Origin: Bacteroidaceae bacterium
GTDB taxonomy: Bacteria; Bacteroidota; Bacteroidia; Bacteroidales; Bacteroidaceae
DNA length: 64,000 nt
Direction: 5' to 3'
NCBI GenBank assembly: GCA_017408685.1
Contig: JAFQUE010000094.1
Span: forward strand, 62,001-126,000
This document shows positions 1 to 40,704 of this stretch, piece after piece. Each line of letters begins with the position of its first letter. Position 1 is the first letter of the stretch. The notes below the pieces were generated by a model. The model ran no database searches, had not been told where the DNA came from, and saw nothing but the letters and a program-made list of their open reading frames with translations. A program made the translations under genes and the position numbers.

Positions 1-2120
1 TAACGCCCAACGGAATGATGTCGGTTGTACCGTTCAACGTCATGGGTTCGGACCTCAATGTCTTTGACAAGGACAGCCGCTGGTGGTCGGCACCCTATGA
101 GTACAACAACAGGTTCTTCACCGGTTATGCCCACGTCGCATTGAGCGGCGTAGGTTGCCCCGAGGCTTCTTCGCTGCTTGTAATGCCCACGGCAGGAGAA
201 CTTGACGTAAACTATTTCACATACGGCACTGAGTATACCGACGAGATTGCTTCGCCGGGTTACTACAGCAACCGACTTACGAAGTACGGCATAAAGACAG
301 AAGTTACGGCAACCACACGCAGTGCATGCGAGCGCTACACATTCCCCGCAGGCAAGGGAAACATTATATTGAACCTGGGACAGGGCCTCACCAATGAGTG
401 CGGCGCCATGGTGCGACGCGTGAGCGAGACCGAGATTGAGGGTTTCAAGGTACTGGGTACGTTCTGCTACACCACACAGGCGGTGTTCCCTATCTATTTT
501 GCCATGAGGGTATCAAAAGCGCCCACAAGCGAAGGTCCATGGAAATTCCAGCCTGCATTGAGCGGCGTTGAGGCCGAGTGGACCCCCGACGACGGCACAT
601 ACAAACTATATGAGAATTACTACAAGGAAATTGCCGGCGACAACATCGGCTACCGTTTCTGTTATGATGACCTTGCCGAAGGCGAGCAGATTACAGTGCA
701 GATGGGCGTCTCTTTCGTTTCGGTAGAGAACGCATGGGAGAACCTTGAAGCCGAACAGAAAGGCAAGAACTTTGACATGGTACACGCCGAGGCTGTGGAA
801 CGTTGGAACAACGACCTGGGACGCATTCGCGTGGAGGGTGGTACAAAGGAGCAGCAGACAATTTTCTACACAGCACTCTACCACGCGCTCATTCATCCCA
901 GTACCATAAGCGACGTAAACGGCGAGTACCCCAAGATGGAGAGCGCGGGAGTGGGCAAGAGCGACCACACACGCTACACTGTATTCTCACTATGGGACAC
1001 ATACCGCAACCTTCACCAGTTACTCACGCTTGTTTACCCCGAACGCCAGACCGACATGCTGCACACCATGGTTGGCATGTACGAGGATTGGGGTTGGCTG
1101 CCGCGCTGGGAACTCTTCGGGCGCGAGACATACACCATGGAGGGTGACCCTGCGGCCATTGTCATTGCCGACAGTTGGATAAAGGGACTGCGCAATTTTG
1201 ACATCGACAAGGCCTATGAGGGCATGCTCAAGTCGGCAACCACCGAAGGCAAGAACAACCCCATACGCCGCGACATTGACCCTTATATAAAGGACGGTTT
1301 CATTCCCCTGTGGTACTTCTCGAGCGACCTTTCGGGCGACAACTCGGTTTCTCATGCACTCGAGTACTGCTCGGCCGACTATGCCATTGCGCAGTTGGCC
1401 GACTCGTTGGGCGACAAGGCACGCGCAAAGGAGTTCCTGAAGCGTTCACAGAGTTATCGCCGTTACTTCTGCAAGGAGCATGGCACACTGCGCCCCCTCA
1501 CGAAGGATGGCGAGTTCCTGGGCGACTTTGACCCGACAACAGGAAAGAATTTCGAGAACGTGCCCGGGTTCCACGAGGCTTCGGCATGGTGCTATACCTT
1601 TGCTGTTCCGCATGACATCAAGGGCCTCACAAGGCTCATGGGCGGCAAGCGCAGTTTCATAAACAGCCTGCAGGGAGTTTTCGACAACGAACTCTACGAC
1701 CCTGCAAACGAACCCGATATTGTATATGCATACCTCTTCAGCCGTTTCAAGGGCGAGGAGTGGCGCACACAGAAGGAAGTGAACAAGATTCTTGACAACC
1801 ACTACAAGAATGCCCCCGACGGCATTCCGGGCAACGACGACACCGGTACAATGTCGGCATGGGCGGTGTTCTCCATGATGGGATTCTACCCCGACTGCCC
1901 GGGCGAACCGCACTACACCCTCACCACACCGGTATTCGACAAGGTGAACATCACCACCCCGCAGGGCAACATCACAATAGAGTGCGACCGCCCAAGCGAG
2001 GATTGCCGCTACATCGAGAGTATAAGCCTCAACGGCAAGAAAAGCGGTTACCGCCTCACACACAAGCAGTTGCTTGACAACGCAAATATAAGACTCAAAC
2101 TAAAGAAAGAACCGAAATGA
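1..2120 (+). CDS. GH92 alpha-mannosidase, left-arm copy, 5' truncated by window edge
   Basis: Mirror of the complete gene at 16639-18885. The first full codon in frame is at position 3, and about 42 N-terminal residues, including the signal peptide, are missing. The visible part holds the GH92 C-terminal signature GNDDTGTMSAW and the SLWDTYR motif. Its stop overlaps the start of the next GH92 gene (ATGA). It is probably the same locus read twice and not a second gene. Confidence 0.9.
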   Translation, partial: TPNGMMSVVPFNVMGSDLNVFDKDSRWWSAPYEYNNRFFTGYAHVALSGVGCPEASSLLVMPTAGELDVNYFTYGTEYTDEIASPGYYSNRLTKYGIKTEVTATTRSACERYTFPAGKGNIILNLGQGLTNECGAMVRRVSETEIEGFKVLGTFCYTTQAVFPIYFAMRVSKAPTSEGPWKFQPALSGVEAEWTPDDGTYKLYENYYKEIAGDNIGYRFCYDDLAEGEQITVQMGVSFVSVENAWENLEAEQKGKNFDMVHAEAVERWNNDLGRIRVEGGTKEQQTIFYTALYHALIHPSTISDVNGEYPKMESAGVGKSDHTRYTVFSLWDTYRNLHQLLTLVYPERQTDMLHTMVGMYEDWGWLPRWELFGRETYTMEGDPAAIVIADSWIKGLRNFDIDKAYEGMLKSATTEGKNNPIRRDIDPYIKDGFIPLWYFSSDLSGDNSVSHALEYCSADYAIAQLADSLGDKARAKEFLKRSQSYRRYFCKEHGTLRPLTKDGEFLGDFDPTTGKNFENVPGFHEASAWCYTFAVPHDIKGLTRLMGGKRSFINSLQGVFDNELYDPANEPDIVYAYLFSRFKGEEWRTQKEVNKILDNHYKNAPDGIPGNDDTGTMSAWAVFSMMGFYPDCPGEPHYTLTTPVFDKVNITTPQGNITIECDRPSEDCRYIESISLNGKKSGYRLTHKQLLDNANIRLKLKKEPK

Positions 2121-4327
2121 AAGCATTGAACAGCATATTGGCACTGTCGCTCATTCTTGCGACATCGTGCTCCACAGCCCCCAAAAGCGAGGAAACCCCA
2201 CAGGAACCGCTCACACAATATGTAAACCCGCTCATTGGCAGCGGCGGACACGGGCATGTATTCGTGGGCGCAAGTGTACCGTTCGGTATGGTACAACTGG
2301 GCCCCACAAGCATAAACCAGACATGGGACTGGTGCTCGGGGTACCACCAAGACGAGGCCACGGTAATAGGTTTCTCGCATACACACCTGAGCGGAACAGG
2401 AATTGGTGACCTCTTCGACGTTACAGTAATGCCCGTGACCGGCGAAGTGACTTACGCACGCGGCATGGCCGAGGACCAAAACAGCGGCATATGGTCACCC
2501 GCCGACCGCACACAGGAAGTTGCCCGTGTCGGTTACTATTCGGTACCACTCACACGCTACGGGATAAAGGCAGAGATGACAGCCACGGCGCGCGTGGGTT
2601 TGCACCGCTACACCTTCCCCGAGGCACAGGACGCAGCGCTTGTGATTGACCTGCAGAACGGCGGTTGTTGGGACGAGACCACCGAAACCTTTATGCAGGC
2701 CGAAGGAAACAACCGCATTGTCGGTTACCGTTACTCAAAAGGATGGGCCAAGAACCAGCGCATATACTTTGTTGCCGAGTTCGCAAAGCCATTCGATAAG
2801 TTTGAACTTAAGGGTTACAAGGATATGTACGGACGTGCGTCGTTCAGTACCGCAGCAGGCGAAGAGGTGTTGCTGAAGGTTGCAATCTCACCCGTGAGCA
2901 TTGAGGGAGCCAAACTGGCAATGGAGTCGGAACTGCCCGGTTGGGACTTTGCAGCAGTGCAGACAGCAGCCGTGGAGGCATGGGAAAAGGAACTCGCGCG
3001 AATAAGGATTGAGAGCAAAAGCCGGGAGCAGAAGGAAATATTCTACACCGCAATGTACCACGCAATGATTGCCCCAATGCTCTTCAGCGACGTCAACGGC
3101 GACTACCGCGGTGCCGACGACAAGATATACAACAGCGACAAGCCACGCTACACCTGTTTCTCCCTGTGGGATACATACCGCGCAAAACAACCGCTGATGA
3201 CGATAATACAACCCGAAAAGGCAGGTGAGTTCGTTGCCACAATGGTTGACATCTGCGACAAGCAGGGCGACCTGCCGGTATGGCACCTGTGGGGCAACGA
3301 GACCGACTGCATGGTGGGCGACCCGGGCATTCCCGTTGTTGCCGACGCCATAGCAAAGGGCATTGATGGCTTTGACCGCGAGGCAGCATTCGCCGCCATA
3401 AAGAAGACTGCCGCCACCGAAGAGCGCGGCAAGGAGTTCCGCCACAAGTTCGGTTACATCCCGTGCGACCTTTTTACCGAGGCTGTTGCCTTTGACATGG
3501 AATATGCCCTTGCCGACGGTGCTGCAGCCAACGCAGCCAAGGCGCTTGGCAAGCAAGACGACTATGAGCACTTCACAAAGATGAGCCACAGTTACCGCAC
3601 ATTCTTTGACAAGGAGACCGGTTTTGTGCGCGGCGTGGACGAGAACGGCAAGTTCCGCACACCGTTCAACCCCTACTTCTCGGCACACCGCGCCGATGAC
3701 TACTGCGAGGGCAACGCATGGCAGTACACATGGCTCGTTCCGCACGACCTTGGCGGTTACATCGACCTCTTCGGCAGCAAGGAAGCATGCCTGGCACGCC
3801 TTGACTCACTGTTCCTTGCACCATCGACAGTCGACGGCGACCCCTCACCCGATATCTCGGGCATGATAGGCCAGTTCGCACACGGCAACGAACCCAGCCA
3901 CCACATCCTCTACCTCTACACAATGATGGGCCAGCCACAGAAGACAGCCAAGTGGGTACGCGAGGTAATGACCACACAGTATCGCAACGATTTTGACGGC
4001 CTCTCGGGCAACGAGGACATGGGCCAGATGTCGGCATGGTATATAATGTCGGCAATGGGTTTCTACGAAGTTGAACCCGCCGGCGCCCGCTACTGGTTCG
4101 GTTCGCCGCTCTTCGACCGCGCCGAACTCACCGTCAAAGGCGGCAAGTTCGTCATTGAAACAGTGAACAACAGCGACGCCAACATCTACATCAAGAGCAT
4201 AAAACTCAACGGCAAACCATACGGCCTGCCATACATCAACCACAGCGACATCGCCAAAGGCGGCACACTCACAATAGAGATGAGCGACACCCCCGCCGTG
4301 TGGTACGACGCGGATGTAATAAGATAA
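2117..4327 (+). CDS. GH92 alpha-mannosidase lipoprotein, left-arm copy
   Basis: Identical mirror of 14432-16642, where the full description is given: a 736-residue exo-alpha-mannosidase of glycoside hydrolase family 92 with an SPII lipobox (LATSC) near residue 18. It overlaps the upstream GH92 gene by 4 bp and is followed by the palindromic terminator at 4343-4380. Confidence 0.9.
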   Translation: MKALNSILALSLILATSCSTAPKSEETPQEPLTQYVNPLIGSGGHGHVFVGASVPFGMVQLGPTSINQTWDWCSGYHQDEATVIGFSHTHLSGTGIGDLFDVTVMPVTGEVTYARGMAEDQNSGIWSPADRTQEVARVGYYSVPLTRYGIKAEMTATARVGLHRYTFPEAQDAALVIDLQNGGCWDETTETFMQAEGNNRIVGYRYSKGWAKNQRIYFVAEFAKPFDKFELKGYKDMYGRASFSTAAGEEVLLKVAISPVSIEGAKLAMESELPGWDFAAVQTAAVEAWEKELARIRIESKSREQKEIFYTAMYHAMIAPMLFSDVNGDYRGADDKIYNSDKPRYTCFSLWDTYRAKQPLMTIIQPEKAGEFVATMVDICDKQGDLPVWHLWGNETDCMVGDPGIPVVADAIAKGIDGFDREAAFAAIKKTAATEERGKEFRHKFGYIPCDLFTEAVAFDMEYALADGAAANAAKALGKQDDYEHFTKMSHSYRTFFDKETGFVRGVDENGKFRTPFNPYFSAHRADDYCEGNAWQYTWLVPHDLGGYIDLFGSKEACLARLDSLFLAPSTVDGDPSPDISGMIGQFAHGNEPSHHILYLYTMMGQPQKTAKWVREVMTTQYRNDFDGLSGNEDMGQMSAWYIMSAMGFYEVEPAGARYWFGSPLFDRAELTVKGGKFVIETVNNSDANIYIKSIKLNGKPYGLPYINHSDIAKGGTLTIEMSDTPAVWYDADVIR

Positions 4328-4342
4328 AGAAAGGTCATATCA

Positions 4343-4380
4343 AATTAAAGGGGATTCACCGCGGTGAATCCCCTTTAATT
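4343..4380 (+). terminator. 38-bp perfect palindrome, terminator of the GH92 operon (left copy)
   Basis: The sequence reads the same on both strands from 4343 to 4380, centred on CCGCGG with no spacer. It begins 16 bp after the GH92 stop codon, with AATT/TTAA-rich ends and GGGG/CCCC stems. A strong hairpin at this spot is most simply the intrinsic terminator of the mannosidase operon. Mirror copy at 14379-14416. Confidence 0.75.
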
Positions 4381-4476
4381 AACTATTGGTTGAATAATTT
4401 ATAAAGTTATATTATCGATTTAGAAACTTTCTTTATTGGAAGTGTACGATAATCCTATCCGCAACGTGGCAGTGAT

Positions 4477-4524
4477 ATATATACAGCAAACAGGGTGGCA
4501 TGCCACCCTGTTTGCTGTATATAT
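4477..4524. repeat. 48-bp perfect palindrome in the GH92-argR intergenic region (left copy)
   Basis: A perfect spacer-less palindrome centred on GGCATGCC. It would extend further (GTGAT...ATCAC) but for one extra TA on the left side. It lies about 100 bp past the first terminator and overlaps the start of a broken leucine-rich-repeat reading frame. It could be a second terminator left from a lost gene or a small repeat element. Mirror copy at 14235-14282. Confidence 0.7.
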
Positions 4525-4731
4525 CACGTATCATACGCGTTGGGTATCACATCAGTAGATGAGTACCTTTTTGCCATTTATTATATTTATACCGTGCGCG
4601 CAATGACTCCGCCCGCAATTACAATGATATTCAATACCCCGGGCATTACAGTTCATGTCCCGGCCACGGCGCTGGCCGCCTACAGGAGCAACCCCAACTG
4701 GAGAACGTACAGGTTGGTAGGGGATTTATAA
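4495..4731 (+). pseudogene. Remnant of a BspA-like leucine-rich-repeat surface protein (left copy)
   Basis: An open frame of 78 codons whose last ~45 residues look like the C-terminal end of a BspA/LRR_5 protein: an AMTPPA segment followed by VPATALAAY, NPNW and a short tail. Such proteins in Bacteroidales end in a 'TPP ... VPA.AL.AY' repeat cap. Upstream repeats and a signal peptide are absent, and the frame begins inside the 48-bp palindrome, so only the 3' end of a gene seems to remain. The rest of 4328-4897 holds the two palindromes and the argR promoter, and no other gene was seen. Mirror at 14028-14264. Confidence 0.5.
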
Positions 4732-4863
4732 CTCTTCATTTCCAAGACACCTTAATAAAAAGGCCATTCGGTTCAACCCTTGTTGTTTCCAAAGAAACTG
4801 CAAATTTCACAGTTTATATGTAAATTATTTGCAAAAACACAAGGAAAATTGTTTAAATATACC

Positions 4864-4871
4864 TATTTTTG
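4864..4871 (+). promoter_or_regulatory. Candidate -7 element (TATTTTTG) of argR, left copy
   Basis: TATTTTTG matches the Bacteroidota TAnnTTTG -7 consensus and ends 26 bp before the argR ATG. No TTTG lies at the expected ~19-bp spacing, and no clear palindromic ARG box was recognised, so self-regulation by ArgR is not visible. Mirror at 13888-13895. Confidence 0.4.
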
Positions 4872-4897
4872 TGTTCGCAAAGAATAAATATACAGTT

Positions 4898-5380
4898 ATG
4901 AAGGTAAAGAATTCACGTCTTGACGCTATTCGTCTTATTCTCTCGACACAAGAGATAGGGAGCCAGGAGGAACTTTTGAGTGAACTTGAGAAAGAGGGTT
5001 TCAAACTTACACAGGCTACGCTGTCGCGAGACCTGCACCAGTTGCGCGTGGTTAAGACGGTGGGTGTTCAAGGACGTTACCGTTATGTGCTTACACGCCC
5101 TCACCAGTACCGCCATGCGGGCGAGCAGGGCGAAGTGCGGGCAGTTACCACGCCACAGGAGGTTACAGGGTTTCTTTCAATCAAGTTCTCGGGCAACATT
5201 GCCGTAATACACACGAAACCAAGTTACGCAAGTACACTGGCATATCATATCGACAATTACGATTTCCCCGAGATTATAGGCACGATTGCGGGCGATGACA
5301 CTGTGATGATGATTATTGCCGAGAACGTGACACGTGCAGCGGTACTGAGGGTCCTCAGGACCATCATCCCCAATATATGA
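4898..5380 (+). CDS. argR: Arginine repressor ArgR, left-arm copy
   Basis: Identical mirror of 13379-13861. 160-residue ArgR with an N-terminal winged helix (SRDLHQL) and the C-terminal arginine-binding motif GTIAGDDT. The ATG at 4898 is chosen over the upstream in-frame TTG at 4829 because homologues begin here and the -7 element lies between the two. Confidence 0.9.
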   Translation: MKVKNSRLDAIRLILSTQEIGSQEELLSELEKEGFKLTQATLSRDLHQLRVVKTVGVQGRYRYVLTRPHQYRHAGEQGEVRAVTTPQEVTGFLSIKFSGNIAVIHTKPSYASTLAYHIDNYDFPEIIGTIAGDDTVMMIIAENVTRAAVLRVLRTIIPNI

Positions 5381-5393
5381 ACAGTTGAGGAGA

Positions 5394-5963
5394 ATGGAAG
5401 AGATTGAGTTCAACGACGGCATTGAGGTGATTATAGCCAATGCCTCGCACGAGAGATATGTCGATGAGATACTCGACACAATAAGCGACGCAGCCAAGGT
5501 GCGCGGTACAGGAATTGCAAAGCGCACGCATGAGTATGTGGCGCAGAAGATGAAGGAGGGCAAAGCCATCATTGCTCTCGCGGGAGATGAGTTTGCAGGG
5601 TTCTGTTACATCGAGAGTTGGGGCAACAGGCAGTATGTCGCAAATTCGGGACTTATTGTAAGGGAGAAGTTCCGCGGGCACGGACTGGCAAGGCGCATAA
5701 AGCAGAGGGCTTTCAGGTTATCGAGAGAGAAATGGCCCAACGCCAAACTGTTCGGGCTCACGAGCGGTGGAGCAGTCATGAAAATCAACACCGAACTTGG
5801 TTACGTACCTGTGCCTTTTTCGGAACTCACCGACGACGAGGCATTCTGGAAGGGTTGCCAGGGTTGTGTGAACCACGATGTGCTCATGCGCACCGGCAGG
5901 CGATACTGCATATGCACAGCCATGCTCTACGACCCGGCAAAGCAGAAAAAGGAGATTATATAA
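5394..5963 (+). CDS. GNAT acyltransferase, candidate N-acylglutamate synthase (left copy)
   Basis: Identical mirror of 12796-13365. 189-residue GNAT protein with the acyl-CoA-binding motif FRGHGLARR. It starts 13 bp after argR in the arginine cluster. The ATG at 5394 is preferred to the TTG at 5385 because GAGGAGA precedes it. Confidence 0.8.
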   Translation: MEEIEFNDGIEVIIANASHERYVDEILDTISDAAKVRGTGIAKRTHEYVAQKMKEGKAIIALAGDEFAGFCYIESWGNRQYVANSGLIVREKFRGHGLARRIKQRAFRLSREKWPNAKLFGLTSGGAVMKINTELGYVPVPFSELTDDEAFWKGCQGCVNHDVLMRTGRRYCICTAMLYDPAKQKKEII

Positions 5964-6028
5964 AGCATTGATTGTTTACACGAACAGAGAATATATATTA
6001 TAAATTTTATATTTCGCACGTTTGTTTA

Positions 6029-6036
6029 TATCTTTA
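6029..6036 (+). promoter_or_regulatory. Weak candidate -7 element before argG (left copy)
   Basis: TATCTTTA differs from TAnnTTTG in its last base and ends 9 bp before the argG ATG. This would make a very short leader. The 82-bp gap between the GNAT gene and argG is AT-rich, so an internal promoter is possible but not proven. Mirror at 12723-12730. Confidence 0.25.
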
Positions 6037-6045
6037 CAACAGAAT

Positions 6046-7245
6046 ATGAAAAAGAAGGTTGTTGTCGCATTCAGCGGCGGACTCGATACATCATTTACAG
6101 TAATGTACCTCGCCAAGGAGAAGGGCTATGAGGTTTATGCGGCATGCGCAAACACAGGCGGTTTCACACCTGAGCAGTTGAAGCAGAACGAGGAGAATGC
6201 ATACAAGTTGGGTGCCAAGGAGTATGTCACCATTGACGTCACAAGGGAGTACTATGACAAGAGCCTGCGCTACATGATATACGGCAATGTGCTGCGCAAC
6301 GGCACATACCCCGTTTCGGTATCATCGGAAAGGATATTCCAGGCGCTTGCCATTGCACGCTACGCAAAAGAAATAGGTGCCGACGCCATTGCGCACGGTT
6401 CCACCGGTGCCGGCAATGACCAGATACGCTTTGACATGACATTCCTGGTGTGCGCACCCGGTGTAGAAATCATCACCCTCACACGCGACATGACGCTCAC
6501 ACGCGAATTTGAGGTGAATTACCTTAACGAGCATGGTTTCAAGGCCGATTTCGCAAAACTGAAATATTCATACAACGTGGGACTGTGGGGAACATCCATC
6601 TGCGGCGGCGAGATACTTGATTCAAGGCAGGGACTGCCCGACAGCGCATACCTTAAGCAGGTAGAGAAAGAGGGTGAAGAGGAACTGCGCCTCACTTTCG
6701 AGAACGGCGAGTTGAAGGCCGTGAACGGCGAGATGTTCAAAGACCCCATCAAAGCCATACAGAAGGTAGAGGAGATTGGCGCACCATACGGCATTGGACG
6801 CGACATGCACGTGGGCGACACCATAATAGGCATAAAAGGGCGTGTGGGTTTTGAAGCAGCGGCCCCAATGCTCATAATTGCCGCCCACAGGTTCCTTGAG
6901 AAATACACGCTCAGCAAGTGGCAACAGTACTGGAAGGACCAGGTTGCCAACTGGTACGGAATGTTCCTGCACGAGAGCCAGTACCTTGAACCTGTAATGC
7001 GCGACATCGAGGCCATGCTCGAGAGTTCGCAGAGGAACGTGACAGGCACGGCAATACTCAGGCTCATGCCGAAACATTTTGAGACCGTGGGCGTGGATTC
7101 GCCAAATGACCTTGTAAAGAACAAACTTGGCGAGTATGGCGAAGTGCAGAAGGGGTGGACTGCCGAAGAGGCCAAAGGATTCATTAAGGTAACCTCTACC
7201 CCGCTGCGTGCATACTATGCAAGCCACCCCGAAGAGAAGATATAA
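6046..7245 (+). CDS. argG: Argininosuccinate synthase, left-arm copy
   Basis: Identical mirror of 11514-12713. 399 residues, with the N-terminal nucleotide-binding motif AFSGGLDTS of argininosuccinate synthases. The ATG at 6046 is chosen because the homologous N-terminus MKKKVVVAFSGG begins there, and the TTG at 6022 would lie upstream of the likely transcription start. Confidence 0.93.
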   Translation: MKKKVVVAFSGGLDTSFTVMYLAKEKGYEVYAACANTGGFTPEQLKQNEENAYKLGAKEYVTIDVTREYYDKSLRYMIYGNVLRNGTYPVSVSSERIFQALAIARYAKEIGADAIAHGSTGAGNDQIRFDMTFLVCAPGVEIITLTRDMTLTREFEVNYLNEHGFKADFAKLKYSYNVGLWGTSICGGEILDSRQGLPDSAYLKQVEKEGEEELRLTFENGELKAVNGEMFKDPIKAIQKVEEIGAPYGIGRDMHVGDTIIGIKGRVGFEAAAPMLIIAAHRFLEKYTLSKWQQYWKDQVANWYGMFLHESQYLEPVMRDIEAMLESSQRNVTGTAILRLMPKHFETVGVDSPNDLVKNKLGEYGEVQKGWTAEEAKGFIKVTSTPLRAYYASHPEEKI

Positions 7246-7259
7246 ATTAAATACATTAT

Positions 7260-8228
7260 ATGATACGAGTAGGAATTATTGGAGGTGCGGGATACACCGC
7301 AGGAGAACTTATACGTCTGTTGCTTATACATCCCGAAGTTGAAATAAAGTTCGTTCACAGCAGCAGCAATGCCGGCAACCGCATAGCCGACGTGCATGCA
7401 GGCCTGCATGGCGATACCGACCTGCTGTTTACCGACGAGTTGCCGTTTGAAGAGATAGACCTTCTCTTTCTGTGCACCGCACACGGCGACACACGCCGAT
7501 TCATGGAAAGCCATGCATTGCCCGACGAATTGAAGGTCATCGACCTCTCAATGGACTACCGCATAAAAGGGAACGACCACGATTTCATTTACGGTTTACC
7601 GGAACTGAACCGTCGCCAGACATGCAAGAGCCGCTACGTAGCAAACCCGGGTTGCTTTGCCACATGCATTGAATTGGGATTGCTGCCATTGGCAAAGGAG
7701 CACATGCTCAAGGGCGACATATCGGTAAATGCCATCACAGGCAGCACCGGCGCGGGGACAAAACCCCAGACTGCCACACACTTCAGTTGGAGAAACGACA
7801 ACATAAGCATATACAAACCGTTCGAGCACCAGCACATGCCCGAAATAATGCAAAGCATAAGACAGTTACAACCCGATTATGACGGCGAGATAGATTTTAT
7901 ACCTTACCGTGGCGGTTTTGCACGCGGAATATTCGCGACAATAGTGGTAAAGTGCGACCTCGATATTGAAACACTCTACAAACTCTATGAGCACTATTAC
8001 GACCGTGACTCGTTCACTCATATCGTAAACACCCCGCTCGACCTGAAGCAGGTGGTGAACACCAACAAGTGCCTCATACACCTTGAGAAACACGGGAACA
8101 AGTTGCTGATAACATCGGTCATCGACAACCTGCTCAAAGGCGCAAGCGGCACGGCGGTACACAACATGAACCTGCTGTTCGGCCTTGCCGAAACAGTGGG
8201 CCTGCAGTTGAAACCATCGGCATTCTAA
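7260..8228 (+). CDS. argC: N-acyl-gamma-glutamyl-phosphate reductase, left-arm copy
   Basis: Identical mirror of 10531-11499. 322 residues, with an N-terminal NAD(P)-binding GGAGYTAGEL motif and the catalytic cysteine in NPGCFAT. It starts 14 bp after argG. Confidence 0.93.
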   Translation: MIRVGIIGGAGYTAGELIRLLLIHPEVEIKFVHSSSNAGNRIADVHAGLHGDTDLLFTDELPFEEIDLLFLCTAHGDTRRFMESHALPDELKVIDLSMDYRIKGNDHDFIYGLPELNRRQTCKSRYVANPGCFATCIELGLLPLAKEHMLKGDISVNAITGSTGAGTKPQTATHFSWRNDNISIYKPFEHQHMPEIMQSIRQLQPDYDGEIDFIPYRGGFARGIFATIVVKCDLDIETLYKLYEHYYDRDSFTHIVNTPLDLKQVVNTNKCLIHLEKHGNKLLITSVIDNLLKGASGTAVHNMNLLFGLAETVGLQLKPSAF

Positions 8229-8239
8229 AGAAGAACAAA

Positions 8240-9361: not shown

Positions 9362-9397
9362 ACATGAGAAGAGAGGCGCGCGCCTCTCTTCTCATGT
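9362..9397. terminator. argD terminator palindrome at the fold-back axis
   Basis: Between the two mirrored argD stop codons lies ACATGAGAAGAGAGGCGC and its exact reverse complement, with no spacer. A GC-rich hairpin right after argD fits an intrinsic terminator of the arginine operon. Because both sides are mirrored, the true length of the natural hairpin cannot be told from this sequence: everything beyond its real arm is a copy of the argD side. Confidence 0.55.
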
Positions 9398-10519: not shown

Positions 10520-10530
10520 TTTGTTCTTCT

Positions 10531-11499
10531 TTAGAATGCCGATGGTTTCAACTGCAGGCCCACTGTTTCGGCAAGGCCGAACAGCAGGTTCATGTTGTGT
10601 ACCGCCGTGCCGCTTGCGCCTTTGAGCAGGTTGTCGATGACCGATGTTATCAGCAACTTGTTCCCGTGTTTCTCAAGGTGTATGAGGCACTTGTTGGTGT
10701 TCACCACCTGCTTCAGGTCGAGCGGGGTGTTTACGATATGAGTGAACGAGTCACGGTCGTAATAGTGCTCATAGAGTTTGTAGAGTGTTTCAATATCGAG
10801 GTCGCACTTTACCACTATTGTCGCGAATATTCCGCGTGCAAAACCGCCACGGTAAGGTATAAAATCTATCTCGCCGTCATAATCGGGTTGTAACTGTCTT
10901 ATGCTTTGCATTATTTCGGGCATGTGCTGGTGCTCGAACGGTTTGTATATGCTTATGTTGTCGTTTCTCCAACTGAAGTGTGTGGCAGTCTGGGGTTTTG
11001 TCCCCGCGCCGGTGCTGCCTGTGATGGCATTTACCGATATGTCGCCCTTGAGCATGTGCTCCTTTGCCAATGGCAGCAATCCCAATTCAATGCATGTGGC
11101 AAAGCAACCCGGGTTTGCTACGTAGCGGCTCTTGCATGTCTGGCGACGGTTCAGTTCCGGTAAACCGTAAATGAAATCGTGGTCGTTCCCTTTTATGCGG
11201 TAGTCCATTGAGAGGTCGATGACCTTCAATTCGTCGGGCAATGCATGGCTTTCCATGAATCGGCGTGTGTCGCCGTGTGCGGTGCACAGAAAGAGAAGGT
11301 CTATCTCTTCAAACGGCAACTCGTCGGTAAACAGCAGGTCGGTATCGCCATGCAGGCCTGCATGCACGTCGGCTATGCGGTTGCCGGCATTGCTGCTGCT
11401 GTGAACGAACTTTATTTCAACTTCGGGATGTATAAGCAACAGACGTATAAGTTCTCCTGCGGTGTATCCCGCACCTCCAATAATTCCTACTCGTATCAT
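10531..11499 (-). CDS. argC: N-acetyl/N-succinyl-gamma-glutamyl-phosphate reductase ArgC
   Basis: 322-residue NADPH-dependent reductase that turns N-acyl-glutamyl phosphate into the semialdehyde used by ArgD. It shows the N-terminal Rossmann motif GIIGGAGYTAGEL, the active-site cysteine in NPGCFAT around residue 130, and the substrate-loop segment TGSTGAGTKP. It is sandwiched between argG (14-bp gap) and argD (11-bp gap), so the three are almost surely co-transcribed. The kinase ArgB, the carbamoyltransferase and argininosuccinate lyase are not in the window and must be encoded elsewhere. Confidence 0.94.
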   Translation of the reverse strand: MIRVGIIGGAGYTAGELIRLLLIHPEVEIKFVHSSSNAGNRIADVHAGLHGDTDLLFTDELPFEEIDLLFLCTAHGDTRRFMESHALPDELKVIDLSMDYRIKGNDHDFIYGLPELNRRQTCKSRYVANPGCFATCIELGLLPLAKEHMLKGDISVNAITGSTGAGTKPQTATHFSWRNDNISIYKPFEHQHMPEIMQSIRQLQPDYDGEIDFIPYRGGFARGIFATIVVKCDLDIETLYKLYEHYYDRDSFTHIVNTPLDLKQVVNTNKCLIHLEKHGNKLLITSVIDNLLKGASGTAVHNMNLLFGLAETVGLQLKPSAF

Positions 11500-11513
11500 A
11501 TAATGTATTTAAT

Positions 11514-12713
11514 TTATATCTTCTCTTCGGGGTGGCTTGCATAGTATGCACGCAGCGGGGTAGAGGTTACCTTAATGAATCCTTTGGCCTCTTCGGCAGT
11601 CCACCCCTTCTGCACTTCGCCATACTCGCCAAGTTTGTTCTTTACAAGGTCATTTGGCGAATCCACGCCCACGGTCTCAAAATGTTTCGGCATGAGCCTG
11701 AGTATTGCCGTGCCTGTCACGTTCCTCTGCGAACTCTCGAGCATGGCCTCGATGTCGCGCATTACAGGTTCAAGGTACTGGCTCTCGTGCAGGAACATTC
11801 CGTACCAGTTGGCAACCTGGTCCTTCCAGTACTGTTGCCACTTGCTGAGCGTGTATTTCTCAAGGAACCTGTGGGCGGCAATTATGAGCATTGGGGCCGC
11901 TGCTTCAAAACCCACACGCCCTTTTATGCCTATTATGGTGTCGCCCACGTGCATGTCGCGTCCAATGCCGTATGGTGCGCCAATCTCCTCTACCTTCTGT
12001 ATGGCTTTGATGGGGTCTTTGAACATCTCGCCGTTCACGGCCTTCAACTCGCCGTTCTCGAAAGTGAGGCGCAGTTCCTCTTCACCCTCTTTCTCTACCT
12101 GCTTAAGGTATGCGCTGTCGGGCAGTCCCTGCCTTGAATCAAGTATCTCGCCGCCGCAGATGGATGTTCCCCACAGTCCCACGTTGTATGAATATTTCAG
12201 TTTTGCGAAATCGGCCTTGAAACCATGCTCGTTAAGGTAATTCACCTCAAATTCGCGTGTGAGCGTCATGTCGCGTGTGAGGGTGATGATTTCTACACCG
12301 GGTGCGCACACCAGGAATGTCATGTCAAAGCGTATCTGGTCATTGCCGGCACCGGTGGAACCGTGCGCAATGGCGTCGGCACCTATTTCTTTTGCGTAGC
12401 GTGCAATGGCAAGCGCCTGGAATATCCTTTCCGATGATACCGAAACGGGGTATGTGCCGTTGCGCAGCACATTGCCGTATATCATGTAGCGCAGGCTCTT
12501 GTCATAGTACTCCCTTGTGACGTCAATGGTGACATACTCCTTGGCACCCAACTTGTATGCATTCTCCTCGTTCTGCTTCAACTGCTCAGGTGTGAAACCG
12601 CCTGTGTTTGCGCATGCCGCATAAACCTCATAGCCCTTCTCCTTGGCGAGGTACATTACTGTAAATGATGTATCGAGTCCGCCGCTGAATGCGACAACAA
12701 CCTTCTTTTTCAT
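11514..12713 (-). CDS. argG: Argininosuccinate synthase ArgG
   Basis: 399-residue ATP-dependent ligase that joins citrulline and aspartate to give argininosuccinate. The N-terminus carries the PP-loop motif AFSGGLDTS, followed by HGSTGAGNDQIRF, the citrulline/aspartate site. The start is the ATG at 12713; a longer TTG start at 12737 would add eight residues not expected in the family. 82 bp separate it from the GNAT gene, the largest gap in the arginine cluster, where a weak -7 element is seen. Confidence 0.95.
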   Translation of the reverse strand: MKKKVVVAFSGGLDTSFTVMYLAKEKGYEVYAACANTGGFTPEQLKQNEENAYKLGAKEYVTIDVTREYYDKSLRYMIYGNVLRNGTYPVSVSSERIFQALAIARYAKEIGADAIAHGSTGAGNDQIRFDMTFLVCAPGVEIITLTRDMTLTREFEVNYLNEHGFKADFAKLKYSYNVGLWGTSICGGEILDSRQGLPDSAYLKQVEKEGEEELRLTFENGELKAVNGEMFKDPIKAIQKVEEIGAPYGIGRDMHVGDTIIGIKGRVGFEAAAPMLIIAAHRFLEKYTLSKWQQYWKDQVANWYGMFLHESQYLEPVMRDIEAMLESSQRNVTGTAILRLMPKHFETVGVDSPNDLVKNKLGEYGEVQKGWTAEEAKGFIKVTSTPLRAYYASHPEEKI

Positions 12714-12722
12714 ATTCTGTTG

Positions 12723-12730
12723 TAAAGATA
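12723..12730 (-). promoter_or_regulatory. Weak candidate -7 element before argG
   Basis: Read on the minus strand, TATCTTTA is one base off the TAnnTTTG consensus. It lies in the only sizeable gap of the arginine cluster. The very short leader it implies makes this a low-confidence call. Confidence 0.25.
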
Positions 12731-12795
12731 TAAACAAACGTGCGAAATATAAAATTTATAATATATATTCTCTGTTCGTGTAAACAATCAATGCT

Positions 12796-13365
12796 TTATA
12801 TAATCTCCTTTTTCTGCTTTGCCGGGTCGTAGAGCATGGCTGTGCATATGCAGTATCGCCTGCCGGTGCGCATGAGCACATCGTGGTTCACACAACCCTG
12901 GCAACCCTTCCAGAATGCCTCGTCGTCGGTGAGTTCCGAAAAAGGCACAGGTACGTAACCAAGTTCGGTGTTGATTTTCATGACTGCTCCACCGCTCGTG
13001 AGCCCGAACAGTTTGGCGTTGGGCCATTTCTCTCTCGATAACCTGAAAGCCCTCTGCTTTATGCGCCTTGCCAGTCCGTGCCCGCGGAACTTCTCCCTTA
13101 CAATAAGTCCCGAATTTGCGACATACTGCCTGTTGCCCCAACTCTCGATGTAACAGAACCCTGCAAACTCATCTCCCGCGAGAGCAATGATGGCTTTGCC
13201 CTCCTTCATCTTCTGCGCCACATACTCATGCGTGCGCTTTGCAATTCCTGTACCGCGCACCTTGGCTGCGTCGCTTATTGTGTCGAGTATCTCATCGACA
13301 TATCTCTCGTGCGAGGCATTGGCTATAATCACCTCAATGCCGTCGTTGAACTCAATCTCTTCCAT
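12796..13365 (-). CDS. GNAT acyltransferase, candidate N-acyl(acetyl/succinyl)glutamate synthase
   Basis: 189-residue GCN5-related acyltransferase. The acyl-CoA pyrophosphate loop is visible as REKFRGHGLARR (Q/RxxGxG/A type) near residue 95, and a CVNHDVLM segment lies close to the C-terminus. It sits 13 bp after argR and before argG-argC-argD, and no other gene for the first step, acylation of glutamate, is in the cluster. From this placement it is inferred to be the N-acylglutamate synthase. Bacteroidota that use N-succinylornithine would need N-succinylglutamate as product. It is much shorter than the classical amino-acid-kinase/GNAT ArgA, so the assignment rests on context. Confidence 0.75.
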   Translation of the reverse strand: MEEIEFNDGIEVIIANASHERYVDEILDTISDAAKVRGTGIAKRTHEYVAQKMKEGKAIIALAGDEFAGFCYIESWGNRQYVANSGLIVREKFRGHGLARRIKQRAFRLSREKWPNAKLFGLTSGGAVMKINTELGYVPVPFSELTDDEAFWKGCQGCVNHDVLMRTGRRYCICTAMLYDPAKQKKEII

Positions 13366-13378
13366 TCTCCTCAACTGT

Positions 13379-13861
13379 TCATATATTGGGGATGATGGTC
13401 CTGAGGACCCTCAGTACCGCTGCACGTGTCACGTTCTCGGCAATAATCATCATCACAGTGTCATCGCCCGCAATCGTGCCTATAATCTCGGGGAAATCGT
13501 AATTGTCGATATGATATGCCAGTGTACTTGCGTAACTTGGTTTCGTGTGTATTACGGCAATGTTGCCCGAGAACTTGATTGAAAGAAACCCTGTAACCTC
13601 CTGTGGCGTGGTAACTGCCCGCACTTCGCCCTGCTCGCCCGCATGGCGGTACTGGTGAGGGCGTGTAAGCACATAACGGTAACGTCCTTGAACACCCACC
13701 GTCTTAACCACGCGCAACTGGTGCAGGTCTCGCGACAGCGTAGCCTGTGTAAGTTTGAAACCCTCTTTCTCAAGTTCACTCAAAAGTTCCTCCTGGCTCC
13801 CTATCTCTTGTGTCGAGAGAATAAGACGAATAGCGTCAAGACGTGAATTCTTTACCTTCAT
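13379..13861 (-). CDS. argR: Arginine repressor ArgR
   Basis: 160-residue hexameric transcription regulator that senses arginine and binds ARG boxes. An N-terminal winged helix-turn-helix holds the recognition SRDLHQL (residues ~45-52), and the C-terminal oligomerisation/arginine-binding domain has GTIAGDDT with its paired aspartates. The ATG at 13861 is used; the in-frame TTG at 13930 would put the -7 element inside the gene. It is first in the arginine cluster and so likely controls it, but no clear operator palindrome was recognised upstream. Confidence 0.93.
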   Translation of the reverse strand: MKVKNSRLDAIRLILSTQEIGSQEELLSELEKEGFKLTQATLSRDLHQLRVVKTVGVQGRYRYVLTRPHQYRHAGEQGEVRAVTTPQEVTGFLSIKFSGNIAVIHTKPSYASTLAYHIDNYDFPEIIGTIAGDDTVMMIIAENVTRAAVLRVLRTIIPNI

Positions 13862-13887
13862 AACTGTATATTTATTCTTTGCGAACA

Positions 13888-13895
13888 CAAAAATA
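13888..13895 (-). promoter_or_regulatory. Candidate -7 element (TATTTTTG) of argR
   Basis: On the minus strand TATTTTTG matches TAnnTTTG and lies 26 bp before the argR start. No TTTG at the normal spacing supports it, so it is a candidate only. Confidence 0.4.
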
Positions 13896-14027
13896 GGTAT
13901 ATTTAAACAATTTTCCTTGTGTTTTTGCAAATAATTTACATATAAACTGTGAAATTTGCAGTTTCTTTGGAAACAACAAGGGTTGAACCGAATGGCCTTT
14001 TTATTAAGGTGTCTTGGAAATGAAGAG

Positions 14028-14264
14028 TTATAAATCCCCTACCAACCTGTACGTTCTCCAGTTGGGGTTGCTCCTGTAGGCGGCCAGCGCCGTGGCCGGG
14101 ACATGAACTGTAATGCCCGGGGTATTGAATATCATTGTAATTGCGGGCGGAGTCATTGCGCGCACGGTATAAATATAATAAATGGCAAAAAGGTACTCAT
14201 CTACTGATGTGATACCCAACGCGTATGATACGTGATATATACAGCAAACAGGGTGGCATGCCAC
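14028..14264 (-). pseudogene. Remnant of a BspA-like leucine-rich-repeat protein
   Basis: Right-arm copy of the broken frame described at 4495-4731, joined here to the normal chromosome. Only the C-terminal cap (AMTPPA, VPATALAAY, NPNW) resembles the BspA/LRR_5 family; there is no signal peptide and no upstream repeat. It fills most of the 570-bp space between the GH92 operon and argR (13862-14431), which otherwise holds only the two palindromes and the argR promoter. Confidence 0.5.
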
Positions 14265-14282
14265 CCTGTTTGCTGTATATAT
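14235..14282. repeat. 48-bp perfect palindrome between the mannosidase operon and argR
   Basis: Mirror of 4477-4524: a spacer-less palindrome centred on GGCATGCC, ending in alternating TA runs that differ by one TA unit between sides. It lies next to the LRR remnant and may be the terminator of a lost gene. Confidence 0.7.
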
Positions 14283-14378
14283 ATCACTGCCACGTTGCGG
14301 ATAGGATTATCGTACACTTCCAATAAAGAAAGTTTCTAAATCGATAATATAACTTTATAAATTATTCAACCAATAGTT

Positions 14379-14416
14379 AATTAAAGGGGATTCACCGCGG
14401 TGAATCCCCTTTAATT
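14379..14416 (-). terminator. 38-bp perfect palindrome, terminator of the mannosidase operon
   Basis: Spacer-less palindrome centred on CCGCGG starting 16 bp beyond the stop of the last GH92 gene. The strong stem and the AT-rich ends fit an intrinsic terminator closing the GH5-ROK-GH92-GH92 operon. Confidence 0.75.
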
Positions 14417-14431
14417 TGATATGACCTTTCT

Positions 14432-16642
14432 TTATCTTATTACATCCGCGTCGTACCACACGGCGGGGGTGTCGCTCATCTCTATTGTGAGTGTGCCGCC
14501 TTTGGCGATGTCGCTGTGGTTGATGTATGGCAGGCCGTATGGTTTGCCGTTGAGTTTTATGCTCTTGATGTAGATGTTGGCGTCGCTGTTGTTCACTGTT
14601 TCAATGACGAACTTGCCGCCTTTGACGGTGAGTTCGGCGCGGTCGAAGAGCGGCGAACCGAACCAGTAGCGGGCGCCGGCGGGTTCAACTTCGTAGAAAC
14701 CCATTGCCGACATTATATACCATGCCGACATCTGGCCCATGTCCTCGTTGCCCGAGAGGCCGTCAAAATCGTTGCGATACTGTGTGGTCATTACCTCGCG
14801 TACCCACTTGGCTGTCTTCTGTGGCTGGCCCATCATTGTGTAGAGGTAGAGGATGTGGTGGCTGGGTTCGTTGCCGTGTGCGAACTGGCCTATCATGCCC
14901 GAGATATCGGGTGAGGGGTCGCCGTCGACTGTCGATGGTGCAAGGAACAGTGAGTCAAGGCGTGCCAGGCATGCTTCCTTGCTGCCGAAGAGGTCGATGT
15001 AACCGCCAAGGTCGTGCGGAACGAGCCATGTGTACTGCCATGCGTTGCCCTCGCAGTAGTCATCGGCGCGGTGTGCCGAGAAGTAGGGGTTGAACGGTGT
15101 GCGGAACTTGCCGTTCTCGTCCACGCCGCGCACAAAACCGGTCTCCTTGTCAAAGAATGTGCGGTAACTGTGGCTCATCTTTGTGAAGTGCTCATAGTCG
15201 TCTTGCTTGCCAAGCGCCTTGGCTGCGTTGGCTGCAGCACCGTCGGCAAGGGCATATTCCATGTCAAAGGCAACAGCCTCGGTAAAAAGGTCGCACGGGA
15301 TGTAACCGAACTTGTGGCGGAACTCCTTGCCGCGCTCTTCGGTGGCGGCAGTCTTCTTTATGGCGGCGAATGCTGCCTCGCGGTCAAAGCCATCAATGCC
15401 CTTTGCTATGGCGTCGGCAACAACGGGAATGCCCGGGTCGCCCACCATGCAGTCGGTCTCGTTGCCCCACAGGTGCCATACCGGCAGGTCGCCCTGCTTG
15501 TCGCAGATGTCAACCATTGTGGCAACGAACTCACCTGCCTTTTCGGGTTGTATTATCGTCATCAGCGGTTGTTTTGCGCGGTATGTATCCCACAGGGAGA
15601 AACAGGTGTAGCGTGGCTTGTCGCTGTTGTATATCTTGTCGTCGGCACCGCGGTAGTCGCCGTTGACGTCGCTGAAGAGCATTGGGGCAATCATTGCGTG
15701 GTACATTGCGGTGTAGAATATTTCCTTCTGCTCCCGGCTTTTGCTCTCAATCCTTATTCGCGCGAGTTCCTTTTCCCATGCCTCCACGGCTGCTGTCTGC
15801 ACTGCTGCAAAGTCCCAACCGGGCAGTTCCGACTCCATTGCCAGTTTGGCTCCCTCAATGCTCACGGGTGAGATTGCAACCTTCAGCAACACCTCTTCGC
15901 CTGCTGCGGTACTGAACGACGCACGTCCGTACATATCCTTGTAACCCTTAAGTTCAAACTTATCGAATGGCTTTGCGAACTCGGCAACAAAGTATATGCG
16001 CTGGTTCTTGGCCCATCCTTTTGAGTAACGGTAACCGACAATGCGGTTGTTTCCTTCGGCCTGCATAAAGGTTTCGGTGGTCTCGTCCCAACAACCGCCG
16101 TTCTGCAGGTCAATCACAAGCGCTGCGTCCTGTGCCTCGGGGAAGGTGTAGCGGTGCAAACCCACGCGCGCCGTGGCTGTCATCTCTGCCTTTATCCCGT
16201 AGCGTGTGAGTGGTACCGAATAGTAACCGACACGGGCAACTTCCTGTGTGCGGTCGGCGGGTGACCATATGCCGCTGTTTTGGTCCTCGGCCATGCCGCG
16301 TGCGTAAGTCACTTCGCCGGTCACGGGCATTACTGTAACGTCGAAGAGGTCACCAATTCCTGTTCCGCTCAGGTGTGTATGCGAGAAACCTATTACCGTG
16401 GCCTCGTCTTGGTGGTACCCCGAGCACCAGTCCCATGTCTGGTTTATGCTTGTGGGGCCCAGTTGTACCATACCGAACGGTACACTTGCGCCCACGAATA
16501 CATGCCCGTGTCCGCCGCTGCCAATGAGCGGGTTTACATATTGTGTGAGCGGTTCCTGTGGGGTTTCCTCGCTTTTGGGGGCTGTGGAGCACGATGTCGC
16601 AAGAATGAGCGACAGTGCCAATATGCTGTTCAATGCTTTCAT
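14432..16642 (-). CDS. GH92 exo-alpha-mannosidase, lipoprotein
   Basis: 736-residue glycoside hydrolase of family 92, calcium-dependent exo-alpha-mannosidases that trim alpha-mannosides of yeast mannan or N-glycans. The N-terminal beta-sandwich starts around residue 34 (YVNPLIGSGGHGH), and the (alpha/alpha)6 domain carries SLWDTYRA near residue 350 and the family signature GNEDMGQMSAW near residue 630. A lipobox LATSC near residue 18 predicts an SPII lipoprotein, facing the periplasm or the cell surface. Its ATG overlaps the stop of the upstream GH92 gene (ATGA), so the two are translationally coupled. The exact linkage preference cannot be read from sequence. Confidence 0.93.
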   Translation of the reverse strand: MKALNSILALSLILATSCSTAPKSEETPQEPLTQYVNPLIGSGGHGHVFVGASVPFGMVQLGPTSINQTWDWCSGYHQDEATVIGFSHTHLSGTGIGDLFDVTVMPVTGEVTYARGMAEDQNSGIWSPADRTQEVARVGYYSVPLTRYGIKAEMTATARVGLHRYTFPEAQDAALVIDLQNGGCWDETTETFMQAEGNNRIVGYRYSKGWAKNQRIYFVAEFAKPFDKFELKGYKDMYGRASFSTAAGEEVLLKVAISPVSIEGAKLAMESELPGWDFAAVQTAAVEAWEKELARIRIESKSREQKEIFYTAMYHAMIAPMLFSDVNGDYRGADDKIYNSDKPRYTCFSLWDTYRAKQPLMTIIQPEKAGEFVATMVDICDKQGDLPVWHLWGNETDCMVGDPGIPVVADAIAKGIDGFDREAAFAAIKKTAATEERGKEFRHKFGYIPCDLFTEAVAFDMEYALADGAAANAAKALGKQDDYEHFTKMSHSYRTFFDKETGFVRGVDENGKFRTPFNPYFSAHRADDYCEGNAWQYTWLVPHDLGGYIDLFGSKEACLARLDSLFLAPSTVDGDPSPDISGMIGQFAHGNEPSHHILYLYTMMGQPQKTAKWVREVMTTQYRNDFDGLSGNEDMGQMSAWYIMSAMGFYEVEPAGARYWFGSPLFDRAELTVKGGKFVIETVNNSDANIYIKSIKLNGKPYGLPYINHSDIAKGGTLTIEMSDTPAVWYDADVIR

Positions 16643-18885
16643 TTCGGTTCTTTCTTTAGTTTGAGTCTTATATTTGCGTTGTCAAGCAACTGCTTGTGTG
16701 TGAGGCGGTAACCGCTTTTCTTGCCGTTGAGGCTTATACTCTCGATGTAGCGGCAATCCTCGCTTGGGCGGTCGCACTCTATTGTGATGTTGCCCTGCGG
16801 GGTGGTGATGTTCACCTTGTCGAATACCGGTGTGGTGAGGGTGTAGTGCGGTTCGCCCGGGCAGTCGGGGTAGAATCCCATCATGGAGAACACCGCCCAT
16901 GCCGACATTGTACCGGTGTCGTCGTTGCCCGGAATGCCGTCGGGGGCATTCTTGTAGTGGTTGTCAAGAATCTTGTTCACTTCCTTCTGTGTGCGCCACT
17001 CCTCGCCCTTGAAACGGCTGAAGAGGTATGCATATACAATATCGGGTTCGTTTGCAGGGTCGTAGAGTTCGTTGTCGAAAACTCCCTGCAGGCTGTTTAT
17101 GAAACTGCGCTTGCCGCCCATGAGCCTTGTGAGGCCCTTGATGTCATGCGGAACAGCAAAGGTATAGCACCATGCCGAAGCCTCGTGGAACCCGGGCACG
17201 TTCTCGAAATTCTTTCCTGTTGTCGGGTCAAAGTCGCCCAGGAACTCGCCATCCTTCGTGAGGGGGCGCAGTGTGCCATGCTCCTTGCAGAAGTAACGGC
17301 GATAACTCTGTGAACGCTTCAGGAACTCCTTTGCGCGTGCCTTGTCGCCCAACGAGTCGGCCAACTGCGCAATGGCATAGTCGGCCGAGCAGTACTCGAG
17401 TGCATGAGAAACCGAGTTGTCGCCCGAAAGGTCGCTCGAGAAGTACCACAGGGGAATGAAACCGTCCTTTATATAAGGGTCAATGTCGCGGCGTATGGGG
17501 TTGTTCTTGCCTTCGGTGGTTGCCGACTTGAGCATGCCCTCATAGGCCTTGTCGATGTCAAAATTGCGCAGTCCCTTTATCCAACTGTCGGCAATGACAA
17601 TGGCCGCAGGGTCACCCTCCATGGTGTATGTCTCGCGCCCGAAGAGTTCCCAGCGCGGCAGCCAACCCCAATCCTCGTACATGCCAACCATGGTGTGCAG
17701 CATGTCGGTCTGGCGTTCGGGGTAAACAAGCGTGAGTAACTGGTGAAGGTTGCGGTATGTGTCCCATAGTGAGAATACAGTGTAGCGTGTGTGGTCGCTC
17801 TTGCCCACTCCCGCGCTCTCCATCTTGGGGTACTCGCCGTTTACGTCGCTTATGGTACTGGGATGAATGAGCGCGTGGTAGAGTGCTGTGTAGAAAATTG
17901 TCTGCTGCTCCTTTGTACCACCCTCCACGCGAATGCGTCCCAGGTCGTTGTTCCAACGTTCCACAGCCTCGGCGTGTACCATGTCAAAGTTCTTGCCTTT
18001 CTGTTCGGCTTCAAGGTTCTCCCATGCGTTCTCTACCGAAACGAAAGAGACGCCCATCTGCACTGTAATCTGCTCGCCTTCGGCAAGGTCATCATAACAG
18101 AAACGGTAGCCGATGTTGTCGCCGGCAATTTCCTTGTAGTAATTCTCATATAGTTTGTATGTGCCGTCGTCGGGGGTCCACTCGGCCTCAACGCCGCTCA
18201 ATGCAGGCTGGAATTTCCATGGACCTTCGCTTGTGGGCGCTTTTGATACCCTCATGGCAAAATAGATAGGGAACACCGCCTGTGTGGTGTAGCAGAACGT
18301 ACCCAGTACCTTGAAACCCTCAATCTCGGTCTCGCTCACGCGTCGCACCATGGCGCCGCACTCATTGGTGAGGCCCTGTCCCAGGTTCAATATAATGTTT
18401 CCCTTGCCTGCGGGGAATGTGTAGCGCTCGCATGCACTGCGTGTGGTTGCCGTAACTTCTGTCTTTATGCCGTACTTCGTAAGTCGGTTGCTGTAGTAAC
18501 CCGGCGAAGCAATCTCGTCGGTATACTCAGTGCCGTATGTGAAATAGTTTACGTCAAGTTCTCCTGCCGTGGGCATTACAAGCAGCGAAGAAGCCTCGGG
18601 GCAACCTACGCCGCTCAATGCGACGTGGGCATAACCGGTGAAGAACCTGTTGTTGTACTCATAGGGTGCCGACCACCAGCGGCTGTCCTTGTCAAAGACA
18701 TTGAGGTCCGAACCCATGACGTTGAACGGTACAACCGACATCATTCCGTTGGGCGTTACTGCGCCCGGGTTTGTTGTGCCGAAGTTGGTTGTGCCTATAA
18801 AAGAATTTACAAGTCCGGCGGGGCCTTGTGCTCCCGCTGTAACTGCGCAAAGCAGCAGGGCCAATAGCAATGTCGTCTTCTTCAT
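16639..18885 (-). CDS. GH92 exo-alpha-mannosidase, secreted
   Basis: 748-residue GH92 enzyme with a classical signal peptide (hydrophobic run, AGAQ cleavage region near residue 20) and no lipobox, so probably periplasmic. The N-terminal motif is LVNSFIGTTNFGTTNPG, SLWDTYR lies in the middle and GNDDTGTMSAW near the C-terminus. It differs clearly from the neighbouring GH92 protein, so the pair is an old paralogous set with possibly different linkage preference. It lies 6 bp after the ROK kinase gene and overlaps the next GH92 by 4 bp. This right-arm copy is the only complete one in the window. Confidence 0.93.
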   Translation of the reverse strand: MKKTTLLLALLLCAVTAGAQGPAGLVNSFIGTTNFGTTNPGAVTPNGMMSVVPFNVMGSDLNVFDKDSRWWSAPYEYNNRFFTGYAHVALSGVGCPEASSLLVMPTAGELDVNYFTYGTEYTDEIASPGYYSNRLTKYGIKTEVTATTRSACERYTFPAGKGNIILNLGQGLTNECGAMVRRVSETEIEGFKVLGTFCYTTQAVFPIYFAMRVSKAPTSEGPWKFQPALSGVEAEWTPDDGTYKLYENYYKEIAGDNIGYRFCYDDLAEGEQITVQMGVSFVSVENAWENLEAEQKGKNFDMVHAEAVERWNNDLGRIRVEGGTKEQQTIFYTALYHALIHPSTISDVNGEYPKMESAGVGKSDHTRYTVFSLWDTYRNLHQLLTLVYPERQTDMLHTMVGMYEDWGWLPRWELFGRETYTMEGDPAAIVIADSWIKGLRNFDIDKAYEGMLKSATTEGKNNPIRRDIDPYIKDGFIPLWYFSSDLSGDNSVSHALEYCSADYAIAQLADSLGDKARAKEFLKRSQSYRRYFCKEHGTLRPLTKDGEFLGDFDPTTGKNFENVPGFHEASAWCYTFAVPHDIKGLTRLMGGKRSFINSLQGVFDNELYDPANEPDIVYAYLFSRFKGEEWRTQKEVNKILDNHYKNAPDGIPGNDDTGTMSAWAVFSMMGFYPDCPGEPHYTLTTPVFDKVNITTPQGNITIECDRPSEDCRYIESISLNGKKSGYRLTHKQLLDNANIRLKLKKEPK

Positions 18886-33796: not shown

Positions 33797-33808
33797 AAAT
33801 TGTCGACT

Positions 33809-40649: not shown

Positions 40650-40704
40650 GGAACACTCCTGTGTGCACGGTTTCCCCGTGCCACAGGTACAAATAAATAA
40701 AACA

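Follow-up and report, generated by a model that had tools for sequence, protein, structure and literature searches.

A stretch of 64,000 nucleotides from a Bacteroidaceae bacterium (assembly GCA_017408685.1, contig JAFQUE010000094.1, positions 62,001 to 126,000), hereafter called the window, was analyzed for the giant palindrome with which it begins. The genes at this locus belong to arginine synthesis and to the GH92 family of glycoside hydrolases, and they are present twice, once in each of two arms that meet just beyond argD. Window positions 1-18758 form a perfect palindrome with no spacer, in which all 9379 of 9379 pairs are complementary. The same arms were obtained independently with a repeat finder, and the runner-up among the axes tried paired at 28%, close to the 25% expected by chance. 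The two exact 9379-bp arms described in an earlier sequence-only reading of this DNA were therefore borne out. As judged from sequence comparisons, this giant palindrome is almost certainly a misassembly in which a whole contig was folded back on itself.

The window corresponds to positions 16759-80758, minus strand, of contig C60 (G000:C60; 142,758 bp) in a draft genome, G000, of 95 contigs and 2,251,037 bases. Put together from its pieces, C60 was free of N and read the same as its reverse complement throughout (0 mismatches in 71,379 pairs); the axis of the palindrome fell on the exact midpoint of the contig. The perfect palindrome measures only 1-18758 in the window because the window edge cuts this larger symmetry. 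An 18.8-kb palindrome at a contig end, as first proposed, was rejected, since window position 1 lies inside C60; the GH92 gene thought to be broken in the left arm is cut by the window edge only, and the right arm does not pass into single-copy sequence. Since C60 is self-reverse-complementary, window positions 18759-64000 are duplicated as well, with their second copy outside the window, and the doubling, believed to affect two GH92 and five arginine genes, extends to the whole 71,379-bp arm and to every gene of the window. The check suggested earlier, a comparison of read depth over 9398-18758 with that over 19000-64000, would mislead because both stretches are equally duplicated; the proper reference is other contigs of the same genome.

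C60 was also exceptional within its genome. A start identical to the reverse complement of the end over 1000 bases was found in C60 alone among 94 testable contigs, in a screen that compared contig ends and excluded C57 (which reads N); in the other contigs above 20 kb the sequence covered was that toward the ends, so that the screen does not bear on partial folds deeper within them. C60 is the longest contig of G000, followed by one of 100,908 bp, and it holds this rank because it is folded, a single arm measuring 71,379 bp. Taken literally, the deposited sequence describes a real, perfectly symmetric inverted chromosomal duplication of 142.8 kb. A real duplication would be expected to have differing outer flanks, but the two outer ends of C60 are one sequence in reverse complement and no distinct flanks exist; moreover, zero differences were found across 71 kb, and bacteria do not readily maintain long perfect palindromes. 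We regard a real duplication as extremely improbable.

The sequence at the axis pointed to a different neighbor. When the last 480 bases of the arm were compared with the genome, one match (E <=0.001) was obtained besides both arms, between the last 30 bases and the start of contig C43. This contig (15,134 bp) opens with the 28-nt palindrome found across the axis, continues like C60 for another ten bases (ATGTCTATAA) and then diverges. Its first gene encodes an M23 peptidase, according to Pfam, and is oriented toward the contig end, hence converging on argD. The genes behind it, named from their sequences, are presumably those for a lipoprotein (called DUF4292), a TPR protein, dut, a GNAT-like protein, an acyltransferase, rpoC, rpoB and rplL. 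Joining C60 to C43 over these 28 bases places argD 46 bases from the M23 gene, with a loop-free perfect palindrome of 48 bp in the junction. DNA folding of the arm end alone was unremarkable (z -0.91), and RNA folding of the axis region merely restated the palindrome and carries no evidential weight.

Table 1. Features of the window, with the copies in the left arm and the basis of each assignment
Feature	Position	Strand	Copy in left arm	Basis
Left arm (in C60 it runs on beyond window position 1)	1..9379	+		Pairing test, repeat finder, C60 symmetry
Right arm, exact reverse complement of 1-9379	9380..18758	-		Pairing test, repeat finder
Further part of the same arm, with mirror copy elsewhere in C60	18759..64000			C60 self-reverse-complement
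Axis 48-bp perfect palindrome, also in the C60-C43 junction with differing flanks	9356..9403			Junction sequence
Axis 28-nt palindrome, equal to the first 28 bases of C43	9366..9393			Exact match
argD-type aminotransferase (Aminotran_3), 373 amino acids, left copy	8240..9361	+		Pfam on right copy
argD-type aminotransferase, right copy	9398..10519	-		Pfam
argC-type semialdehyde dehydrogenase	10531..11499	-	7260-8228, +	Pfam
argG, argininosuccinate synthase	11514..12737	-	6022-7245, +	Pfam
GNAT acetyltransferase	12796..13374	-	5385-5963, +	Pfam
argR, arginine repressor	13379..13930	-	4829-5380, +	Pfam
GH92 glycoside hydrolase	14432..16642	-	2117-4327, +	Pfam
Second GH92 glycoside hydrolase	16639..18885	-	to 2120, +; cut by the window edge alone	Pfam, C60 symmetry

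Further along the window, two SusC/SusD-like pairs with TonB plug and SusD_RagB domains were observed within 30428-35548 and 37341-42699; ahead of them, at 27085-30399, lies a protein that matches fasciclin weakly. Additionally, a protein of 1566 amino acids at 43917-48617 combines a CotH kinase, an F5/8 type C and a dockerin type I domain, a dockerin thus occurring in a gut Bacteroidaceae. No tRNA was found in the window by ARAGORN.

The sequence-only reading had also suggested looking in related genomes for what follows argD, a suggestion that proved fruitful. Genome contigs were searched with argD and the best 80 named loci were analyzed, the nearest group consisting of the 16 loci with an argD of at least 80% identity. 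The ten best loci are titled as Bacteroidaceae or Bacteroidales bacteria, eight of them from ruminant gut according to the title. The gene order and orientation of C43 (converging M23, DUF4292-like, TPR, dut, GNAT) followed argD in 11 of the 80 loci, all of them among the 16 nearest (L167-L176, L180). In these 11 syntenic relatives the site of the axis is internal to a contig, between argD and the M23 cluster; the gap from argD to the M23 gene was below 300 bases in eight, and 963, 1392 and 3706 bases in the other three. In a second set of relatives' loci, several of them from the same genomes, M23 was found downstream of argD in 12 of 29. C43 thus provides the neighbor expected for argD, which again speaks against a real duplication. 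Six of the 11 syntenic loci carry a loop-free palindrome of their own in this gap (32-52 bp; first 150 bases only scanned for L169, L171 and L173), with sequences unlike the axis palindrome; L173 and L175 share a core.

A linear replicon with covalently closed hairpin ends was considered as well, the axis being its telomere, present either in a head-to-head dimer or as an assembled telomere. An end that folds back would yield a loop-free palindrome and a symmetric contig, and the 28-mer of the axis recurs at a contig end, that of C43. Nevertheless, the genes examined are ordinary chromosomal ones (arginine synthesis, GH92, SusC/SusD), the site is contig-internal and not a replicon end in the 11 syntenic relatives, and dozens of similar palindromes lie inside contigs of G000, so that a hairpin replicon is scarcely credible here.

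One of the relatives, RGIG6404, has two argD copies on different contigs (L166 and L169; G004:C89 and C81), with 89% and 87% identity to the query, and in the DNA examined the M23 neighbor is beside one of them only. The second copy could be a second locus or could come from a mixed bin.

The k-mers of the junction were then compared with those needed for the fold. At all 11 values of k tested, from 21 to 49, the junction k-mers alone suffice for the full fold-back walk, taken over 5 kb to either side of the axis. Because all its k-mers occur in the junction, no chimeric read is needed for a graph of small k to hold the walk that turns from argD onto its own opposite strand. At the values tested from k=50 upward the junction lacked some of the fold-back k-mers (1 at k=50, 10 at k=59 and 92 at k=141).

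Three observations thus identify the fold-back: the self-reverse-complementarity over the full length of the contig, the neighboring contig sharing the end k-mer, and the k-mer-supported walk up to k=49. In the proposed mechanism, a natural loop-free perfect palindrome would separate argD from the converging M23 gene on the chromosome, probably as a two-way transcription terminator, as suggested by its position. Being its own reverse complement, the palindrome gives a walk that arrives from argD two exits in a de Bruijn graph built with k under about 50, one toward the M23 gene and one returning along the opposite strand of the walk itself. The assembler would have taken the way back, copying the entire 71,379-bp arm in reverse, and would have left the true neighbor separate as C43, beginning exactly at the palindrome; this order of events inside the assembler is the one we infer. 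C60 therefore represents one 71,379-bp arm abutting C43, and the giant palindrome has no biological function. The earlier suggestion of a contig end folded during assembly was right as to the fold-back itself, although the fold sits at the true edge of the arm, just past argD, and window position 1 lies inside the contig.

How the fold survived the rounds above k=49 may be explained by carry-over of the small-k contig or by a few hairpin-primed reads, both of which are possible. Such reads are also the core of another explanation, a chimera arising during library making (by a self-primed hairpin or whole-genome amplification) in place of a graph error. A strong hairpin such as that at the axis could self-prime, and a few such reads would supply the k-mers missing at large k. 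At small k, however, chimeric reads are unnecessary, and a chimera alone would leave unexplained both the full 71-kb mirror and the lost link to C43. A chimera as the origin of the fold is accordingly unlikely, albeit less so than a duplication or a hairpin replicon.

Traces of the assembler were observed elsewhere in G000. Between contig ends, stretches of exactly 141 bases were shared in 13 forks and 6 dovetails, any other length occurring at most twice. C50 ends (L059:16261-16402) in a perfect palindrome whose length, 142 nt exactly, exceeds the 141-base overlaps by one; this is probably a second, aborted fold-back. C43, C63 and C72 each begin exactly with a 28-nt palindrome. The lengths of 28 and 142 are one base off k values of 27 or 29 and of 141, and MEGAHIT has both 29 and 141 among its default k values. 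Several close relatives bear RGIG names and come, we assume, from a ruminant study, in whose text the term RGIG was not found. The methods part of that study gives MEGAHIT v1.1.1 with no k option stated, plus IDBA-UD for single samples (PMC8199421). The assembler was presumably MEGAHIT, and the window itself might stem from that study.

As a separate observation, C63 and C72 open with one and the same 28-nt palindrome (L071:1-28, L080:1-28), and C63 has a 36-bp version near its other end (L071:7542-7577). In these contigs the palindrome is likely a small repeat that breaks the assembly.

Several points weigh against the fold-back interpretation. Five of the 16 nearest loci did not show the M23 gene (L166, L177, L178, L179 and L181): L178 stops 162 bases past argD, L166 belongs to a genome with two argD copies of which the other, L169, is syntenic, and L177, L179 and L181 gave no M23 match within 10 kb downstream of argD. 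M23 was seen in none of the 64 more distant loci in the downstream DNA examined, which was less than 1 kb for some. No loop-free palindrome was found in the scanned gap of five of the 11 syntenic loci, L174 having an 18-bp stem with a 4-base loop and the other four no stem longer than 8. The join of C60 and C43 is supported by the 28-nt overlap and by synteny only. The k-mers missing at k=59 and k=141 demand either a fold carried up from small k or a few chimeric reads. Finally, the verdict is based on assembled sequences.

The abundance of loop-free palindromes was determined in a sample of 1.32 Mb of G000 (one C60 arm and up to 20 kb from the start of every contig), counting perfect palindromes with a stem of at least 12. 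At spacer 0 there were 65 (including the 142-nt end of C50), while spacers of 1, 2 and 4 bases gave 12, 7 and 30, respectively. On the assumption of random 4-base loops, the spacer-4 count would predict about 2.5 palindromes at spacer 0 and 7.5 at spacer 2; the excess at spacer 0 is thus about 26-fold, and the count at spacer 2 fits. No spacer-0 palindrome was found in one first-order random sequence of equal length. The palindromes measure 24-68 bp and many lie at gene ends (e.g., L011:4634-4685, L031:5288-5349 and L059:2042-2109, and also in the relatives L167, L169, L173, L255 and L258). By a crude call of open reading frames, the 65 are placed in convergent gaps (21), same-direction gaps (20), divergent gaps (2), open reading frames (7) or near contig edges (15), in a sample holding 112 convergent, 520 same-direction and 126 divergent gaps. 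This placement suggests that they may act as terminators.

The same count was applied to the 80 argD loci. The 24 loci of the same lineage, grouped by title and identity, contained 15 such palindromes in 429 kb, the 20 loci of Bacteroides, Phocaeicola or Mediterranea had 1 in 391 kb, and 31 other loci had 2 in 596 kb, five of the 80 loci being left ungrouped. A small control, 50 kb of E. coli K-12, contained none. Three genomes of the same genus whose contigs match records with SPAdes-style names (G036, G005 and G025) had 10 in 320 kb, partly overlapping the 429-kb set; as they also carry palindromes, these are not the product of one assembler. Moreover, 64 of the 65 sequences are distinct, so that they are mostly not copies of one repeat family. 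The loop-free palindromes that trigger the fold are real, and in this lineage they are unusually frequent. The chances seem about even that the trigger belongs to a lineage-specific class in ruminant-gut Bacteroidaceae, with dozens of long loop-free palindromes that could terminate transcription in both directions, their perfection arising or being maintained through copying from arm to arm, and that would fragment and fold short-read assemblies throughout the lineage.

These results have consequences for the use of this genome. Since about 71 kb are doubled, gene counts and any claims of GH92 or arginine paralogues drawn from C60 are wrong, and contamination estimates from duplicate markers could be inflated. 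Testing contigs for identity with their own reverse complement is cheap and would reveal similar errors in public genome collections. Given that loop-free palindromes are common in the lineage, further fold-backs may be expected, and the palindromes themselves deserve a separate look.

In literature searches covering palindromic terminators as well as contigs that are palindromic or folded, no full-contig inverted fold-back or loop-free terminator palindrome appeared in the titles and the starts of abstracts among the papers listed, and in two papers the word palindrome was met only as part of the name CRISPR. Metagenome contigs with artificial concatenation of identical sequence are known (Chen et al., 2020, PMC7111523; CheckV, PMC8116208). 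C60 resembles them in that the assembler has put the same sequence more than once into one contig, which is detected with a repeat finder or by k-mer counts. In C60, by contrast, the copy is inverted and spans the whole contig, and a natural palindrome has been identified as the trigger; the relevant passages of these papers describe identical repeats and do not mention inverted copies. Terminal overlaps of k-mer length are likewise known to be left by short-read assemblers (PMC7111523, PMC8116208), and the exact 141-base stretches common to contig ends of G000 are of this kind. The palindromic ends of fixed length (28 and 142 nt) in G000, which those passages do not mention, constitute a further trace.

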